Of a stretch of 64,000 nucleotides of DNA, positions 6,357 through 57,205 are shown in pieces. Every line of letters begins with the position of its first letter. Position 1 is the stretch's first letter. The notes below the pieces were generated by a model, which saw nothing but the letters and a program-made list of their open reading frames with translations, ran no database searches and was not told the origin of the DNA. The DNA comes from Polyodon spathula (lineage: Eukaryota; Chordata; Actinopteri; Acipenseriformes; Polyodontidae). The stretch lies in NCBI RefSeq assembly GCF_017654505.1, contig NC_054540.1, positions 44,059,054 to 44,123,053 on the forward strand. Reading direction: 5' to 3'. The position numbers and the translations under genes were made by a program.

Positions 6357-6948
6357 CATCCACAGGCGGACGGTTTGGCGGAACGTTTTAACCAAACATT
6401 AAAGCAGATGCTGAGGTGATTTGTGAACCAGGAGCAGAAACATTGGACAGCGCTCCTTCCCTACCTCCTTTTTGCAGTGAGAGAGGTGCCACAGAGTTCG
6501 ATGGGGTTCTCCCCCTTTGAGCTCTTGTACGGCCGACAGCCTTGTGGCATCCTTTATCTCTTAAGAGAGGGTTGGGAGGAGCACAAAGGCTTGTCCAAAA
6601 AAATGTAGTGCAGCATGTACTCCTACTCCGTGATCACCTGAATTTGGTCGGTCGTTTGGCCCAGGATAATCTAAAGTTGTCTCAGCACCGTTAACAGAAG
6701 CTTTACAGCCAAAATGCACGGATTTGGACCTTTCGACCAGGAGACAAGGTAATGTTGCTTCTTCCCACGTTGGAATCTAAGCTATATACTAAATAGCAGG
6801 GGCCATATGAGGTGATTCGGGCTATAGGAAAAGTCAATTATAAAATTCGGCAGCCCAATTACCACAACAAAAAGGAAATTTACCATGTCAATTTATTGAA
6901 GCCCTGGCAAGCAAGGGAGGCTTTATTTATAGCCCCAGGCGATTGAGA
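6357..6948 (+). pseudogene. Retrotransposon integrase, C-terminal part
   Basis: It resumes with HPQADGLAERFNQTLKQML (catalytic Glu in ERFN). After a stop, the frame from 6423 reads HWTALLPYLLFAVREVPQSS and GFSPFELLYGRQP, typical of gypsy integrase cores. The tail reads TFRPGDKVMLLLPT, then GPYEV and YHVNLLKPWQAREALFIA, the C-terminal nucleic-acid-binding segment. It runs almost directly into reverse transcriptase. Confidence 0.75.
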
Positions 6949-6950
6949 GG

Positions 6951-7553
6951 ATGATTGTCTCTCCCCCAGGTGTCACAGTTAGAGAGAGGCACTACCGGAT
7001 CCCGGAAAGTCGACGAGGTGGCGTTCGCAAAATGGTGCGGGTTATTCTTCAGCTTGGGGTGATTGAGCCTTCCAGGAGTGAGTGGTGCAGTCCGATTGTG
7101 ATAGTCGCCAAAAAGGATGGCACCAACAGCTTCTGTGTTGATTTTCACAAGGTGAATGCTATTGCCAAGTTTGATGCATATCCCATGCCTTGGGTCGACA
7201 AGCTTCTTGACAGACTGGGAACGGCAAGGTTAATCTCGACTTTGGACCTGATGAAGGGATACTGGCAGATCCCCTTAATCTGCAGATCATGTAAGAAAAC
7301 TACATTTCCTACCCCTGATGGTCTGTTTCATTTCACAACCATGCCGTTTGGACTACATGGTAAGCCTGCTGCCTTTCAGAGACTAGTGGACCAGGTTTTA
7401 CGCCCACATCATGAATATGCCTCAGCATATATTGACGATGTGGTTATCTACAGCTCCACCTGGCGAGAGCATTTGGCTAGTGTCACAGCCGTCTTGCAGT
7501 CTCTAAGGGTAGCCCGTCTGCCAAAGAAGAAACCCAGTATTTAGGATTTATTA
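6951..7553 (+). pseudogene. Ty3/gypsy reverse transcriptase fragment
   Basis: An open frame of 197 codons. Blocks in order: RERHYRIPESRRGGVRKMV, LGVIEPSRSEWCSPIVIVAK, FCVDFHKVNAIAKFDAYPMP, ISTLDLMKGYWQIPL, TTMPFGLHGKPAAFQRLVD and the catalytic YIDDV box near 7427-7441. The palm is nearly complete, but the thumb ends in a frameshift (ETQYLGFIM in another frame at about 7528) and RNase H is absent. The LTR follows shortly after. The usual 60-80 residue linker to integrase is also lacking. Confidence 0.85.
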
Positions 7554-12074: not shown

Positions 12075-12264
12075 GTCTTATAAACACCAAAGAGCTTATT
12101 TTGTGTTCCGTTTTCTCCATGGAGGTACAGCCTTCACAGGAAAGCCTTCACTGTGATTCCCATCACTACGGTTAATTGATTTGAGCAGTTTTCAAGATGC
12201 CTGAATACATCACAAATCTAGAAAAGCTGTGGCAGTGCAACAAAGAACTGGGCAATCTGAGTTA

Positions 12265-13671
<1,407 letters not shown>

Positions 13672-27281: not shown

Positions 27282-27910
27282 ATGACTGGTTACAGCCAGC
27301 GAAGAAAACGACACTGCCGAGACAAATTCTATTATATGAGACTTACAGATAGAGATAAAAAAGAGGTTCCGCTTGAGCTGAGGCAAAATATTGGAATTAT
27401 ATAGGGATCTTGAGCCAAATATTCACTGTAAAACAAGAAGGAGCCAATCCATTGTTCCGATTAATAGATTGCTAGCTGCATTAATGTTTTACAGTTCAGG
27501 ATCATTCCAAAGAAACAACAGTGATGCATTTGGATTCAGTCAGTCCACAATCAGTAGGATTGTAAAACAAGTTACCAGTGCATTACTATATAGAATATCT
27601 ACTTATATCTCCTTTCCACTTAATGCAAGGGAACACAATTCTATAAAGTAGGGATTTTACGATGTTGCAGGCATGCCTAATGTTTTAGGGACAATCGATT
27701 GCTCGCATATACCATGTAATAATGGTAACGTGTTCATTAATAGAAAGGGTTGGCATTCTATTAACATGCAGATAGTGTGTCGACACGACTATATAATGAC
27801 TAATGTGTTCGCCAGTTTTCCGGGATCTACACATGATGCCTTAATTTGGGATCGAAGTGCACTGTGTGCATATTTTGAAGGTGATAATTGTCCTGATGCC
27901 TTCTTACTGG

Positions 27911-27919
27911 GTAATTGTA

Positions 27920-28010
<91 letters not shown>

Positions 28011-28157
28011 TATTAAATTATACATATGTAATCCTAATGTGACAACATGTGTGGACTGTCGACGATTAGTAGATCGATTAAATGAAACTGCTAAATGGAA
28101 AGTACTATTGTAACAACAACATACTGGACTTTAAATATGAATGTAATTATGTTATAG
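27911..28157 (+). other. Inferred intron in the Harbinger transposase
   Basis: The coding sequence breaks after CTGG at 27910 and resumes at GAGACAGCGG (28158), rebuilding the expected LLGDSGYP motif across a phase-1 junction. The interrupted DNA begins GTAATT and ends TTATAG. It holds the TTA microsatellite. Confidence 0.6.
27924..28013. repeat. (TTA)n microsatellite
   Basis: About 30 TTA/ATT units inside the inferred transposase intron. Poly-Leu, poly-Tyr and poly-Asn frames here are artefacts. Confidence 0.95.
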
Positions 28158-31254: not shown

Positions 31255-31337
31255 GTTAACAATCCATGCAGAGTGTCCCATGCACCTCGAGGACTTCCCA
31301 ATGGATACACATGCTTGTCCATTAAAGTTTGGAAGTT
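31255..31337 (+). CDS. gabra3: gabra3 Cys-loop exon (83 bp)
   Basis: The acceptor TTTCAG precedes 31255 and the donor GTAAGT follows 31337. The first base completes an upstream codon; the frame then reads [20 protein letters not shown] and CPLKFGS, with the last base beginning a Tyr codon finished by the next exon. It holds the signature Cys-loop: two Cys 13 residues apart with the central Phe-Pro-Met-Asp. The Cys-loop couples agonist binding to the channel gate. The length, 83 bp, equals the corresponding exon in other GABRA genes as I recall. MDTHA replaces the mammalian MDVHA, a mild change. Confidence 0.95.
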
Positions 31338-33712: not shown

Positions 33713-33856
33713 ATGCATACACAAACTCAGAAGTGGTTTACATTTGGACCCTTGGCCACGATAAATCTGTGGTGGTGGCAGAGGATGGTTCTCGCTTAAA
33801 CCAGTATGACTTGCTGGGCCACGCTGTCAGCACTGAAGTGATCAGATCCAGCACAG
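33713..33856 (+). CDS. gabra3: gabra3 loop C exon (144 bp)
   Basis: The acceptor CTTTCAG and donor GTAGGT border the exon. With the previous base it reads [20 protein letters not shown], then [20 protein letters not shown] and [22 protein letters not shown] and the IRSSTG end match the alpha-3 pattern. The segment SSTGEY, completed by the next exon, corresponds to loop C, part of the agonist and benzodiazepine pockets. The last 28 bp of this exon are unit 1 of a minisatellite that runs on into the intron, so several donor-like sites lie just downstream. Confidence 0.95.
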
Positions 33857-34117
33857 GTAGGTGTGGGTTTAGCACTGAAGTGATCAGATCAGCGTGGTTA
33901 GGTGTGGGTTTAGCACTGAAGTGATCAGATCCAGCAGGGGTAGTTGTGGGTTTAGCACTGAAATAATCAGATCAGCACAGGTAGGTGTGGGTTTAGCACT
34001 AAGTAGATGAGATCAGCACAGGTAGGTGTGGGTTTAGCACTGAAGTGATAAGATCAGCACGGGTAGGTGTGGGTTTAGCACTGAAGTGGTCAGATCAGCA
34101 TGGTTAGGTGTGGGTTT
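33829..34117 (+). repeat. Minisatellite spanning the exon-intron border
   Basis: Seven units of 41-42 bp begin with AGCACTGAAGTGATCAGATC and end with GTAGGTGTGGGTTT. Unit 1 (33829-33870) carries the real exon end and donor. The others lie at 33871, 33912, 33954, 33995, 34036 and 34077. Units 4 and 5 keep the donor CACAG/GTAGGT unchanged, unit 6 has CACGG/GTAGGT, and units 2, 3 and 7 carry changes at the GT region. Confidence 0.95.
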
Positions 34118-36254
<2,137 letters not shown>

Positions 36255-36855: not shown

Positions 36856-37283
36856 AGTGGTCCCCAAGTGGCTCATCTGGTAACAGCACAGCTCTGTGGT
36901 GTGCTGGGTGAGTCATACAGTCAGGGGAGCGCAGGTTTGCGTCCTGGCTGGGAAGTCGCTGGTTTTTGCTGTGGATTCCAGAGGGGGTGTTGCATTGGCT
37001 CTGGCACTTCGTGAGTTAGGGAGACAAAACAGGCAGGGACTGTTTCTCCTCATTGCGCTACAGTGGACCCTACTGGGCAAGTGCCGGTAGCTTGCTGACA
37101 TCAGCTCTCGAGTATCTGAGTGTAAAAGAGGAAACTCGTTTGGTTGTGGGATAGGAGGATGCCCAATGAACCTTTAGTTCTCCTGTGCTGTGTGGGGAAT
37201 TGCTGCAGTGAGGGGGGAAATAATTGGGCATTCTAAATTGGGGAGAAAATCGGGGGGAAAATAATTGTAAATAAAATAAAAAC
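36856..37283 (+). repeat. tRNA-derived SINE, copy 1
   Basis: A box A-like TGGCTCATCTGG is at 36869-36880 and a box B-like GGTTTGCGTCC at 36934-36944. The body ends with GGGCATTCTAAATTGGGGAG and an A-rich tail. The tail phrase recurs in the copy at 58502. Family name unknown to me. Confidence 0.65.
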
Positions 37284-37817: not shown

Positions 37818-38044
37818 TATATATATGTCACACACTACAGAATGCATTTTGCTTTAATATTCATGTCCAAGTGTGCACAATAACATCTGAATGTATAACA
37901 TGTATTTGTGAACAGCTTTTTTCAAAAGGGGAGGGGACCAAAAAAATAAATTAATGAGAATCAATATAAGGTTTTGTTATGGATCTTGTGTTTCTGACAT
38001 TGGCTTGTGGAGTTTTAGAATGAACAAGTGTTGAGAGCTCAGAG

Positions 38045-39665
38045 GTACATGTACAGTGGGGTTTTAGAGACGCAGGTACAGTGGGGTCCTAGAGACTCGG
38101 GTAAAGTGGGGTTCTAGAGGCTCGGGTAAAGTGGGGTTCTAGAGACACAGGTACAGTGGGGTTCTACAGGTGCAAGTACAGTGGGGTTCTAGAGGCAAGG
38201 GTACAGTGGAGTTCTAAAGGCTCGGGTAGTGGGGTTCTAGAGATGCAAGAAACAGTGGGGTTCTAGAGGCTCAGGTACAGTGGGGTTTTGGAGGTGCAGG
38301 TACAGAGGGGTTCTAGAGGTGCAGGTACAGTGGGGTTCTAGAGATGCAGGTAAAGTGGGGTTCTGGAGGTGCAGGTGCAGGTACATTGGGGTTCTGGAGG
38401 TGCAGGTACAGTGGGGTTCTGGACGTGCAGGTACAGTGGGATTCTAGAGGAGCAGGTACAGTGGGGTTTGAGAGGTGCAGGTACAGTGGGGTTCGAGAGG
38501 TGCAGGTACAGTGGGGTTCCGGAGGTGCAGGTACAGTGGGGTTCTAGAGAAGCAGGTACAGTGTGGTTCGAGAGGTGCAGGTACAGTGGGGTTCTGGAGG
38601 TGCAGGTACAGTGGGGTTCTACAGGTGCAAGTACAGTGGGGTTCTAGAGTCAGGGGTACAGTGGAGTTCTAAAGGCTCGGGTAGTGGGGTTCTAGAGACG
38701 CAAGGAACAGTGGGGTTCTAGAGGCTCGGGTACAGTGGGGTTTTGGAGGTGCAGGTACAGCTGGGTTCTAGAGGTGCAGGTACAGTGGGGTTCTAGAGGT
38801 GCAGGTACAGTGGGGTTCTAGAGGTGCAGGTACAGTGGGGTTCTAGAGGTGCAGGTACAGTGGGGTTTTGGAGGTGCAGGTACAGTGGGGTTCTGGAGGT
38901 GCAGGTACAGTGGGGTTCTAGAGGAGCAGGTACAGTGGGGTTCGAGAGGTGCAGGTACAGTGGGGTTCTGGAGGTGCAGGTACAGTGGGGTTCTGGACAT
39001 GCAGGTACAGTGGGGTTCTAGAGGAGCAGGTACAGTGGGGTTCTGGAGGTGCAGGTACAGTGGGGTTCTGGAGGTGCAGGTACAGTGGGGTTCTAGAGGT
39101 GCAGGTACAGTGGGGTTCTAGAGGTGCAGGTACAGTGGGGTTCTAGAGGTGCAGGTACAGTGGGGTTCTAGAGGTGCAGGTACAGTGGGGTTCTAGAGGT
39201 GCAGGTACAGTGGGGTTCTAGAGGTGCAGGTACAGTGGGGTTCTAGAGGTACAGGTACAGTGGGGTTCTAGAGGAGCAGGTACAGTGGGGTTCTGGAGGT
39301 GCAGGTACAGTGGGGTTCTAGAGGTGCAGGTACAGTGGGGTTCTGGAGGTGCAGGTACAGTGGGGTTCTAGAGGAGCAGGTACAGTGGGGTTCTAGAGGT
39401 GCAGGTACAGTGGGGTTCTAGAGGAGCAGGTACAGTGGGGTTCGAGAGGTGCAGGTACAGTGGGGTTCTGGAGGTGCAGGTACAGTGGGGTTCGAGAGGT
39501 GCAGGTACAGTGGGGTTCTGGAGGTGCAGGTACAGTGCGGTTCTAGAGGAGCAGGTACAGTGGGGTTCTAGAGGTGCAGGTACAGTGGGGTTCTACAGAT
39601 GCAGGTACATTTTGGTTCTAGAGGCTTGGGTACATTGGGGTTCTAGAGGCACAGGTACACTGGGG
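38045..39665 (+). repeat. 25-bp minisatellite, about 65 units
   Basis: The unit is close to GGTGCAGGTACAGTGGGG plus TTCTAGA. The first part (38045-38340) is more varied, with CTCGGGTA variants; the rest is homogeneous, with TCTAGAGG, TCTGGAGG and TCGAGAGG alternating. Because 25 is not a multiple of 3 and the unit lacks stops in most phases, long frames appear on both strands, which are not genes. The plus strand is G-rich and each unit has CAGGTACAGT, a weak donor-like string. Confidence 0.97.
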
Positions 39666-46521: not shown

Positions 46522-48060
46522 TTAAATGTTGCTGTTAAACTTAAGCATCGTCAGTTGGTTAACCTTGCTTTCTTTCATAGATTGACGTTGTTCTGTAAAA
46601 ACTTGGCCATAAGAAGAAACACTTCTTTCAGCATCTACAGAGTTGGTAACAACTGACAAATATATTTTAGCCTTTCGTGTTAAATTGGGAAATAATTCTT
46701 CAGCTTTAGTCCAAAATTCATTCAAAGTCATTCTACTGCCATTTTCTTTTGCATATGGTAGGTATTTGTCAATTTGTGATTTACAGTCAGAATGTAATGG
46801 GAGGGCTTCCAGATCCAAACTACACACTTGTTGTGGGTCGAATATCCTCACTGCCATCAGAAAGATAGGAGCTGCTTGAAAAAAATGCGGTTTCTTTTTG
46901 CATTGATCCGGGTTGTCGTAATTAGTCAGTTTTTCAGAAACATCATGGAAGGTTTTTACACATAGTTTGTTTACTGCGGGGTCTGTGATGGGTACCTCTT
47001 GTGCCATTGCTAGGTATGTATTTATTAATTCTGCAACTTTATTATATGTTTGATGGACTCTCACTTCACGGCTTTCAAACCACTGAATCAGATCCATCAG
47101 TCCCTTGGCATGCATCACAATTTGGGAGTGTTGAGATTTTAAACTTTGCACATCTTTAAGCAATTTCTGGAAGTCCTTTAACACTACAGTATTTGGTGAA
47201 ATGTGCATTTCCTTTTCCATGAAGCCTGCATAAAAAGGGGTGTATTTGGAATGATATCCAGCAGCAGATTACCAAGTGCCCCATCATGTTATGCATGTCT
47301 CAGGTGGCAAATTTATGGGAAAAGTACATCCTTCTTATTGGATTGCTTCTGTCAGGTGGTCTTTAAAACATAGTTTTTTGCATGGGCAATGTTAAAGAAT
47401 TTTTTTGATTTTTGCAACAAGCTTGTCTGCTTTTTGAGAATAATTTCCCCAGATATTGCTGGCAAGGGCTATTATGTGGGCATTACATGTCAAATGTACT
47501 GAATTTGACAGTAAACCTTGAAGAATGTCATTGTATGCATTGATCCTGTAACTGGCATTATCGGAGACAAATCCAGTCACATTATTAAAATTAACTTAAA
47601 ATTTAAACATTTCACAACACCCTGTGCCACTGATGAGTAATTCAGAGAGATTGTGCAGATTACAGATTAACTGTATCTAATATTACTTTCAGTTTGAAGG
47701 TATTTGATAGTTCTTGGAGAACAAACAAAATGTGCAAAACATACTGATCTTTTGCATTTGGAGACTCATCAGTAACTACTGATACACTGTCAGAGAGCTG
47801 GTACAGTTTTTATCTTGTGCAACTCAACAATTTGGGGTAGATATTCTCTTCTTAGTTGACCTGGTGTAGAAATTGCTCCTACATTTATTACATTTGTTCA
47901 GAAATGCATGTAGTGGGATTATCATTTTTTTCCAGGGGAATATTATGCCTCTGTCAAATCGAAAATAACATCTCGTCGGCATAATTTTCGTTCCCCTTAC
48001 ATTTTTTACTGGAGGACGTGTCTCATAGCTTTGCTTTCAATGATAAATGTCGGTCTATTG
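46522..48060 (-). pseudogene. hAT transposase pseudogene
   Basis: The C-terminal 232-codon frame (46522-47220) ends with NSVDAERSVSSYGQVFTEQR and QSMKESKVNQLTMLKFNSN, the hAT dimerisation motif, preceded by MTLNEFWTKAEELFPNLTRK. A second piece (47392-47580) reads FVSDNASYRINAYNDILQGL and SVHLTCNAHIIALASN, the catalytic-core region with the conserved Cys-x2-His. Further 5', VVTDESPNAKDQ holds the first catalytic Asp. Pieces are separated by frameshifts. No clear BED finger was seen. Confidence 0.8.
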
Positions 48061-48672: not shown

Positions 48673-48884
48673 GCGTCACTACCGTCCTCACAATGACCAC
48701 CCTGAGCATCAGTGCTAGAAACTCTTTACCCAAAGTGGCATATGCGACGGCCATGGACTGGTTCATAGCCGTCTGTTATGCCTTTGTGTTTTCTGCACTG
48801 ATTGAATTTGCAACGGTGAACTATTTCACCAAGCGGAGCTGGGCTTGGGACGGTAAAAAAGCTATGGAGGCCCAGGAGCAGAGG
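48673..48884 (+). CDS. gabra3: gabra3 TM2-TM3 exon (212 bp)
   Basis: It is bordered by TTTCACAG and GTAAGT. Its first two bases complete the Gly codon. It then reads [20 protein letters not shown] (TM2, the pore lining), then [20 protein letters not shown] and [11 protein letters not shown] (TM3), then [19 protein letters not shown], the start of the cytoplasmic loop. KRSWAW with GKK is the alpha-3 form. Codon ATA at 48765-48767 is the Ile of DWFIAV, the position edited to Met in mammalian Gabra3. The exon ends on a codon boundary. Confidence 0.96.
48737..48782 (+). promoter_or_regulatory. gabra3: Candidate ADAR editing hairpin (I/M site)
   Basis: GACGGCCATGGA (48746-48757) pairs with TTCATAGCCGTC (48762-48773) over a 4-base loop CTGG. 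Eleven of 12 positions pair (one G-U); the single mismatch sets A 48767 against C 48752. Beyond a 3 by 3 internal loop, GGCATA (48737-48742) pairs with TATGCC (48777-48782). A 48767 is the third base of an in-frame ATA codon; editing to inosine would give Met. The stem is entirely exonic. Confidence 0.75.
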
Positions 48885-48907
48885 GTAAGTGGTTTTGTCA
48901 TATTGCA

Positions 48908-49034
48908 GGGGAATTGTAGTGCAGAAAGCCAACATTCCGGAACATGCTGGGTGACTTACAGCAACGGCCCTTGCCTGTGCTGTTTGTGACCCAGCATGCT
49001 CCTTACTGCTGGCATTCTGGACCATCATTCCCCA
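48908..49034. repeat. Foldback repeat next to the exon donor
   Basis: The left arm (48908-48953) has GGGGAATTGTAGTGCAGAA and GGAACATGCTGGGT; the right arm (48988-49034), reverse-complemented, reads GGGGAATGATGGTCCAGAA and GGAGCATGCTGGGT. The arms are about 46 bp with scattered mismatches. It begins 23 bases after the donor GTAAGT and may be a small MITE. Confidence 0.7.
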
Positions 49035-54292: not shown

Positions 54293-55926
54293 CAGTGGCT
54301 TGCGAAAGTATTGACCCCCCCCTTGGCATTTTTCCTGTTTTGTTGCCTTACAACCTGGAATTAAAATTGATTTTTTGGGGGTTTGTATCATTTGATATAC
54401 CACGACATGCCTACCACTTTGAAGATGCAAAATATTTTTTATTGTGAAACAAACAAGAAATAAGACAAAACAACAGAAAACTTGAGCATGCATAACTATT
54501 CACCCCCCCCCCCCCCAAAGTCAATACTTTGTAGAGCCACCTTTTGCAGCAATTACAGCTGCAAGTCTCTTGGGGTATGTATCTATAAGCTTGGCACATC
54601 TAGCCACTGGGATTTTTGCCCATTCTTCAAGGCAAAACTGCTCCAGCTCCTTCAAGTTGGATGGGTTCCGCTGGTGTACAGCAATCTTTAAGTCATACCA
54701 CAGATTCTCAATTGGATTGAGGTCTGGGCTTTGACTAGTCCATTCCAAGACATTTAAATGTTTCCCCTTAAACCACTCGAGTGTTGCTTTAGCAGTATGC
54801 TTAGGGTCATTGTCCTGCTGGAAGGTGAACCTCCGTCCCAGTCTCAAATCTCTGGAAGACTGAAACAGGTTTCCCTCAAGAATTTCCCTGTATTTAGCGC
54901 CATCCATCATTCCTTCAATTCTGACCAGTTTCCCAGTCCCTGCTGATGCCCACAAAAACATCCCCACAGCATGATGCTGCCACCACCATGCTTCACTGTG
55001 AGGATGGTGTTCTCTGGGTGATGAGAGGTGTTGGGTTTGCGCCAGACATAGAGTTTTCCTTGATGGCCAAAAAGCTCAATTTTAGTCTCAGAAGTACCTT
55101 CTTCCATATGTTTGGGGAGTCTCCCACATACCTTTTGGCAAACACCAAACATGTTTGCTTATTTTTTTCTTTAAGCAATGGCTTTTTTCTGACCACTCTT
55201 CCGTAAAGCCCAGCTCTGTGGAGTGTACGGCTTAAAGTGATCCTATGGACAGATACTCCAATCTCCACTGTGGAGCTTTGCAGCTCCTTCAGGGTTATCT
55301 TTGGTCTCTTTGTTGCCTCTTTGATTAATGCCCTCCTTGCCTGGTCCATGAGTTTTGGTGGGTGGCCCTCTCTTGCCAGGTTTGTTGTGGTGCCATACTC
55401 TTTCCATTTTTTAATAATGGCTTTAATGGTGCTCCGTGGGATGTTCAAAGTTTCGGAAATTTTTTATAACCCAATCCTGATCTGTACTTCTCCACAACTT
55501 TGTCCCTGACCTGTTTGGAGAGCTCCTTGGTCTTCATGGTGCCGCTTGCTTGGTGGTGCCCCTTGCTTAGTGGTGTTGCAGACTCTGGGGCCTTTCAGAA
55601 CAGGTGTATATATACTGGGATCATGTGGCAGATCATGTGACACTTTGATTTCACACAGGTGGACTTTATTTAACTAATTATTTGACTTCTGAAGGTAATT
55701 GGTTGCACCAGATCTTATTTAGAGGCTTAATAGCAAAGGGGGCGAAAACATATGCACGCACACACTTTTCCGTTATTTATTTTTTAGAATTTTTTGAAAC
55801 AAGTTGTTTTTTTCATTTCACTTCACCAATTTGGACTATTTTGTGTATGTCCATTTTAATTCCAGGTTGTAAGGCAACAAAATAGGAAAAATGCCAAGGG
55901 GGGGTCAATACTTTCTCAAGCCACTG
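54293..55926 (-). mobile_element. Tc1/mariner element, copy B
   Basis: It begins CAGTGGCTTGCGAAAGTATT after TA at 54291-54292, and ends CAATACTTTCTCAAGCCACTG at 55926 before TA. Length about 1.63 kb, normal for Tc1. It is the fuller version of copy A. A C-run lies at 54505-54517. Confidence 0.9.
54521..55537 (-). pseudogene. Tc1 transposase pseudogene (copy B)
   Basis: The start codon near 55537 gives MKTKELSKQVRDKVVEKYRS. A frameshift near 55466 precedes TLNIPRSTIKAIIKKWKEYG. It continues [52 protein letters not shown] (second Asp) and [20 protein letters not shown] (Glu), then [16 protein letters not shown]. The span equals about 339 codons, the usual Tc1 length. At least two frame shifts make it inactive. 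Confidence 0.88.
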
Positions 55927-56878: not shown

Positions 56879-57205
56879 AAGAAGGATTCGGCACCGCTTT
56901 CAAAGAAAGCCAATAACACATACAATATTGTTGGGACGACCTACGCCATCAACATAGCTAAAGATCCAGGCTTACCTACGGTTTCAAAGAGCACAGCCAC
57001 AGCAGCTGCAACAGTGGCTCCCATCCAAATCCCCCAAATGGAAGAAAGTCCCCCGGAAAGCAACAAAACCTACAACAGTGTCAGCAAAGTGGACAAGATG
57101 TCCCGCATTATATTCCCTGTGCTTTTTGCCATTTTCAATTTGGTTTACTGGGCTAACTATGTCAACAGAGAGCCCATCATTAAGGGGTCAAGCCCTAGTA
57201 AATGA
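56879..57205 (+). CDS. gabra3: gabra3 terminal coding exon (327 bp)
   Basis: The acceptor TATTTTAG precedes 56879; it starts on a codon boundary and ends at TGA 57203-57205. It reads [40 protein letters not shown], an Ala/Pro-rich stretch, then [20 protein letters not shown] (TM4 from about 57107), [20 protein letters not shown] and [16 protein letters not shown] and SVSKVDK...FAIFNLVYW are alpha-3 traits. The loop binds cytoplasmic partners such as gephyrin in mammals; whether that site works here cannot be judged. Confidence 0.96.

Follow-up and report, generated by a model that had tools for sequence, protein, structure and literature searches.

A predicted two-part GABRA3 I/M editing module in the gabra3 gene of the ray-finned fish Polyodon spathula

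The gabra3 gene of Polyodon spathula very probably carries a fish version of the A-to-I editing module known from the vertebrate GABRA3 I/M site, composed of an exonic hairpin around an editable ATA codon and a second, longer hairpin in the downstream intron. We studied a DNA stretch of 64,000 nt (here called the window) that holds the 3′ part of gabra3 on the plus strand. By analogy with mammalian work, the pair would recruit ADAR, edit the transcript and alter the receptor.

Background

Mammals recode the GABRA3 I/M site efficiently; its codon there is ATA, and the edited A lies in an A:C mismatch. According to passages of earlier papers, the site is edited to 93% in mouse brain (PMC2831006), chickens edit it in both brain and retina (PMC4449034), and the human site is c.A1026G, p.I342M (PMC4053846). 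In general terms, fish and amphibians are stated to often have G at edited sites (PMC2831006). Compared with unedited receptors, those with edited alpha-3 are reported to have lower GABA sensitivity, faster decay and lower abundance on the cell surface (PMC6428777).

Editing in mammals also involves an editing inducer element (EIE), which in mouse Gabra-3 is an intron 9 stem-loop, 149 nt long with 54 bp, that lies 143 nt from the I/M site (PMC5654063, Table 1) and without which editing is inefficient. Deleting the EIE from a mouse reporter in HeLa cells reduced I/M editing from 40% to under 10% (PMC5654063) and, in a second mouse-reporter study in HeLa cells, from 37% to none detected (PMC4053975). 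The Gabra-3 EIE is described as active from other positions and as replaceable by an inverted Alu pair (PMC4053975), and the mouse element is itself hyper-edited (PMC5654063, PMC4053975). Our literature search, at the level of titles and abstract openings plus some passages, turned up neither editing of gabra3 in sturgeons nor such an intronic hairpin in fish, and an earlier mention is possible; a zebrafish GABA-A paper (PMC7973766) does not use the word "editing" in its passages.

The gabra3 gene in the window

The window holds five gabra3 coding exons with AG acceptors and GT donors (Table 1); motifs of the earlier exons were looked for across the 64 kb and not found. The TM2-TM3 exon and the final one both have alpha-3 as their top PDB match, and the joined window protein (305 amino acids) has 98% identity to Acipenser oxyrinchus gabra3, the closest among the matches listed, where Polypterus reaches 90% and Lepisosteus 89%. 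The initial annotation had recognized gabra3 and a fish source from the bare letters, and these matches agree with it on both. A scan of viral contigs and genome contigs with protein P0001 gave no confirmed relative.

Table 1. Features of gabra3 and of the predicted editing module (positions in the window)
Feature	Position	Strand	Details
gabra3 coding exon (LTIHAECPM...)	31255..31337	+	
gabra3 coding exon (AYTNSEVVY...SSTG)	33713..33856	+	
gabra3 coding exon with TM1	34692..34844	+	
gabra3 TM2-TM3 exon (exon 9, mammalian numbering), 212 nt	48673..48884	+	acceptor CAG before 48673, donor GTAAGT at 48885; best PDB match GABRA3
Wider exonic structure, 11-bp closing stem 48710-48721/48790-48800 enclosing the hairpin	48710..48800	+	fold, mean pair probability 0.92-0.93 in six contexts
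Rfam RF01803 GABA3 match (editing element of GABA-3 exon 9)	48732..48785	+	80.6 bits, gathering cut-off 57
Predicted exonic editing hairpin, 6 + 8 + 5 bp, CTGG loop	48737..48782	+	fold, pair probabilities
C opposite A 48767 (A:C mismatch)	48752..48752	+	fold
ATA codon, Ile of DWFIAV (TM3)	48765..48767	+	third base, A 48767, predicted to be edited; UAG context; ATI would be read as Met
Intronic hairpin, proposed EIE, 126 nt, 46 bp, 4-nt loop	48908..49033	+	arms 48908-48968 and 48973-49033
gabra3 last coding exon, TM4 and stop	56879..57205	+	best PDB match alpha-3

The window also contains repeats. At 33829-34117, a 41-bp unit is repeated in 7 tandem copies; it includes the final 28 nt of the gabra3 exon 33713-33856 and the splice donor of that exon, so that several donor-like GTAGGT sites stand in succession in the intron. 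A 25-bp minisatellite of about 65 copies lies at 38041-39665 and could explain why the GC skew is 0.35 at 36-40 kb. Pfam matches point to transposon remnants: Sleeping Beauty HTH and DDE_3 (12221-13378, with 12221-12622 just below the cut-off), DDE_3 (54524-55075), hAT dimerisation (46525-47268), DDE_Tnp_4 (27652-28110, in a frame that runs into a (TTA)n repeat) and reverse transcriptase (6933-7541).

An editable codon in an exonic hairpin

Both sequence hallmarks of the I/M site, a genomic ATA and an A opposite C within an exonic hairpin, are present in the TM2-TM3 exon. When 48732-48785 is folded, 48753-48757 pair with 48762-48766 around the loop 48758-48761, and 48746-48751 pair with 48768-48773 below the C 48752/A 48767 mismatch. 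An outer stem of 6 bp joins 48737-48742 to 48777-48782. The mean pair probabilities of the inner 5 bp, middle 6 bp and outer 6 bp are 0.91, 1.00 and 0.95, the same across six sequence contexts of 101 to 1,501 nt; the 2 additional pairs between 48744-48745 and 48775-48776 are unsure (mean probability, 0.52). A G in place of A 48767 would pair with C 48752, and the fold would go from −23.3 to −29.9 kcal/mol.

The initial annotation had drawn the stem 48746-48757/48762-48773, its loop, the mismatch and the outer 6 bp exactly as the letters and the fold have them, and had placed A 48767 at the third base of an in-frame ATA for the Ile of DWFIAV, on which letters and translation agree. A fold of 48700-48800 includes this stem and is more stable than expected from dinucleotide shuffles (z = −3.56; 1 of 200 equally stable). 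The named stem stands, then, while the hairpin as first delimited is not the complete structure, which extends to the closing stem listed in Table 1; this stem and the intronic hairpin described below had been missed.

The match to the Rfam family RF01803 spans model positions 1-54 of 54 (E = 1.3e-18) and is the sole Rfam match above its family cut-off in the 64-kb window. The consensus of this family has an AUU codon, i.e., a U at the edited position, so family membership alone does not mean editability; the window sequence has the editable A. Compared with the mammalian and avian I/M site, the window has the same exon, the same TM3 Ile position and a matching RF01803 hairpin, but the gene is that of a ray-finned fish, in which editing is predicted, and adds the closing stem within 48710-48800.

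Isoleucine and methionine across vertebrates

We scored the residue at the I/M position in the best 120 of 1,873 matches to the gabra3 query. The survey reads proteins and not codons, and an Ile elsewhere need not be ATA. Ile occupies the position in 31 of these matches and Met in 89, with no other residue. Among the 78 ray-finned rows listed (sorted by organism name, several of them isoforms of one species), Met is found in 77, and the sole Ile is that of Acipenser oxyrinchus. The frogs among the matches listed all have Met (6/6), and the squamates are divided (Met in 6, Ile in 4); Ile is listed for coelacanth, sharks, skate, newt, caecilian, turtle, birds and mammals, and the lineages with known editing (mouse and chicken) fall in groups with Ile proteins among these matches. 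The initial annotation had said that some fish and frogs encode Met, which is right and too mild.

A second set of matches (the best 120 of 2,455) contributed 27 additional proteins. Four of them (P0243, P0244, P0252 and P0255), all with Ile, were set aside as alpha-1, alpha-2 or fused alpha models; P0252, with an alpha-1-like tail, is from a catfish, so that one ray-finned Ile row was dropped. The 23 kept have Ile in 12 and Met in 11, and the seven named ray-finned ones all have Met. Two signatures of the alpha-3 tail were looked for in the 143 kept proteins: 125 have both, and in the other 18 variants of them are visible by eye; a few are named alpha-2 by their source yet are alpha-3-like beside the I/M site. 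Within the squamates, Met occurs in Anolis, Pogona, Crotalus, Zootoca and Paroedura, and Ile occurs in Phrynosoma, Hemicordylus, Lerista, Gekko and Sphaerodactylus, which makes them a good group for studying repeated hardwiring of Met.

The Met-encoding genes (those of teleosts, gar, bowfin, bichir, frogs and several lizards and snakes) are compared here at the same position of alpha-3 proteins. Those genomes write Met directly, leaving nothing to edit, whereas the sturgeon lineage has Ile and the window codon is ATA. Because Ile is exceptional among the ray-finned rows (1 of the 78 listed) and an apparent inducer accompanies it, the sturgeon lineage looks like the only ray-finned lineage among the matches listed to have kept the editable state together with its apparent booster.

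It is unlikely, in our view, that the ray-finned ancestor already had Met and that sturgeons later mutated ATG to ATA, any editing being secondary. Parsimony does not discriminate here, as an ancestral gain of Met followed by a sturgeon reversion takes two changes, equal to two separate gains of Met (one in bichirs and one in gar, bowfin and teleosts). This count follows the general species order; a tree that joins sturgeon and bichir gives equal cost. Such a grouping was obtained, with support of 85, in our tree of 64 rows (62 hand-chosen from the 143 kept proteins, the window and one alpha-1 outgroup, with the I/M site masked), which requires at least 7 Ile/Met changes over 63 rows. However, Ile is the residue of every coelacanth, shark, skate, salamander and caecilian row of the tree, and a lineage without editing is not expected to keep a long hairpin resembling the mammalian inducer in place and size. 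The presence of the intronic hairpin tips the balance, in our judgement, from reversion toward retention. The earlier proposal that the editable state was kept is supported by the ATA, the A:C mismatch, the stem and the inducer-like hairpin, although parsimony alone permits a reversion from Met; the accompanying suggestion that the site is edited in brain stays a prediction.

A candidate editing inducer element in the downstream intron

The intronic hairpin at 48908-49033 starts at intron base 24, after 23 nt of intron, and lies 140 nt from A 48767. The segment 48883-49060, which contains it, is more stable than all of 200 shuffles (z = −5.73), and the hairpin has a mean pair probability of 0.97 in the four contexts that contain it. 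No fold in its 8-kb intron is stronger, and it ranks second among the loci of 6,387 windows of 130 nt on the plus strand; the only locus with a stronger 130-nt fold is at 36861-36990.

Like the Gabra-3 EIE, this hairpin is a single long, stable stem-loop in the next intron, with tens of base pairs and a distance to the site in the range of about 140-150 nt. Its 126 nt and 46 bp compare with 149 nt and 54 bp in the mammalian element, a likeness of geometry. When two primer ends of the mouse EIE (23 and 20 nt only) were aligned to the hairpin, scores as good came from 82 and 202 of 500 shuffles, respectively, and we rejected sequence homology to the mouse EIE as a claim, as these ends align no better than chance. 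Since induction has been described as sequence independent (in passages of PMC4053975), the missing match is given little weight either way. Read-through open reading frames of short contigs, inspected visually for introns of other vertebrates, yielded nothing usable.

It seems quite improbable that the intronic hairpin is unrelated to editing, whether as a decayed fold-back transposon or as a chance palindrome. The window does contain several transposon remnants and one locus, at 36861, that folds more strongly, and similarity to the mouse EIE ends was not detected. Against this, the hairpin has no second copy in the 64-kb window, no other fold in its intron is as strong, and it begins near the mammalian distance and has nearly the mammalian size.

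The two hairpins share one stretch of complementarity: 48918-48927, in the 5′ arm of the intronic hairpin, is perfectly complementary over 10 nt to 48790-48799, on one side of the exonic closing stem. We rejected direct exon-intron pairing here, as its mean probability in the ensemble is 0.0, with the stretch retained as a possible alternative fold.

Codon choice in the TM2-TM3 exon

In alignments of the PDB matches, the peptide encoded by the exon hairpin is common to GABRA1, GABRA2 and GABRA3, and we therefore tested codon choice by synonymous recoding. For the 57-nt core (48732-48788), 77 of 5,000 recodings fold equally well, a modest result; for the 96-nt structure that includes the closing stem (48708-48803), only 1 of 3,000 does. 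The wider exon structure goes beyond what the protein sequence alone requires, and we rejected the protein sequence as its sole cause, the core by itself being less clear. When the partial coding sequence is scanned in 96 in-frame windows of 57 nt, the predicted editing site has the best z (−2.60), closely followed in value by another region (−2.50). ATA makes up 4 of the 21 Ile codons of the partial gabra3 coding sequence and is therefore not rare. That the exon hairpin is a coding by-product of the shared alpha-subunit segment, with ATA a chance Ile codon and the site unedited in sturgeon, would fit the common peptide, the AUU of the RF01803 consensus, the ordinary frequency of ATA and the result for the core, but is very improbable given the recodings of the wider structure and an inducer-like hairpin at the expected place.

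Proposed mechanism and evolutionary reading

In the editing module as we reconstruct it, the exon would form a short imperfect hairpin in the nuclear pre-mRNA, in which A 48767, within a UAG, faces C 48752. The intronic hairpin, some 140 nt downstream and just beyond the 5′ splice site, would attract ADAR and raise its local concentration. ADAR would then deaminate A 48767, and ATA would be read as ATG, changing the TM3 residue from Ile to Met in some brain transcripts before the intron is spliced.

We are evenly divided on a fuller history, in which the common ancestor of ray-finned and lobe-finned fishes already had both parts of the module, Met was hardwired separately in bichirs, in gar, bowfin and teleosts, in frogs and repeatedly in squamates, and sturgeons are the only living ray-finned lineage listed that still makes Met by editing. 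If this is true, a ray-finned fish with both the substrate and an apparent inducer would date the whole module before the split between ray-finned and lobe-finned fishes. It would also provide a natural comparison between lineages that edit the residue and lineages in which it is hardwired, one that bears directly on the question of whether recoding regulates or only restores.
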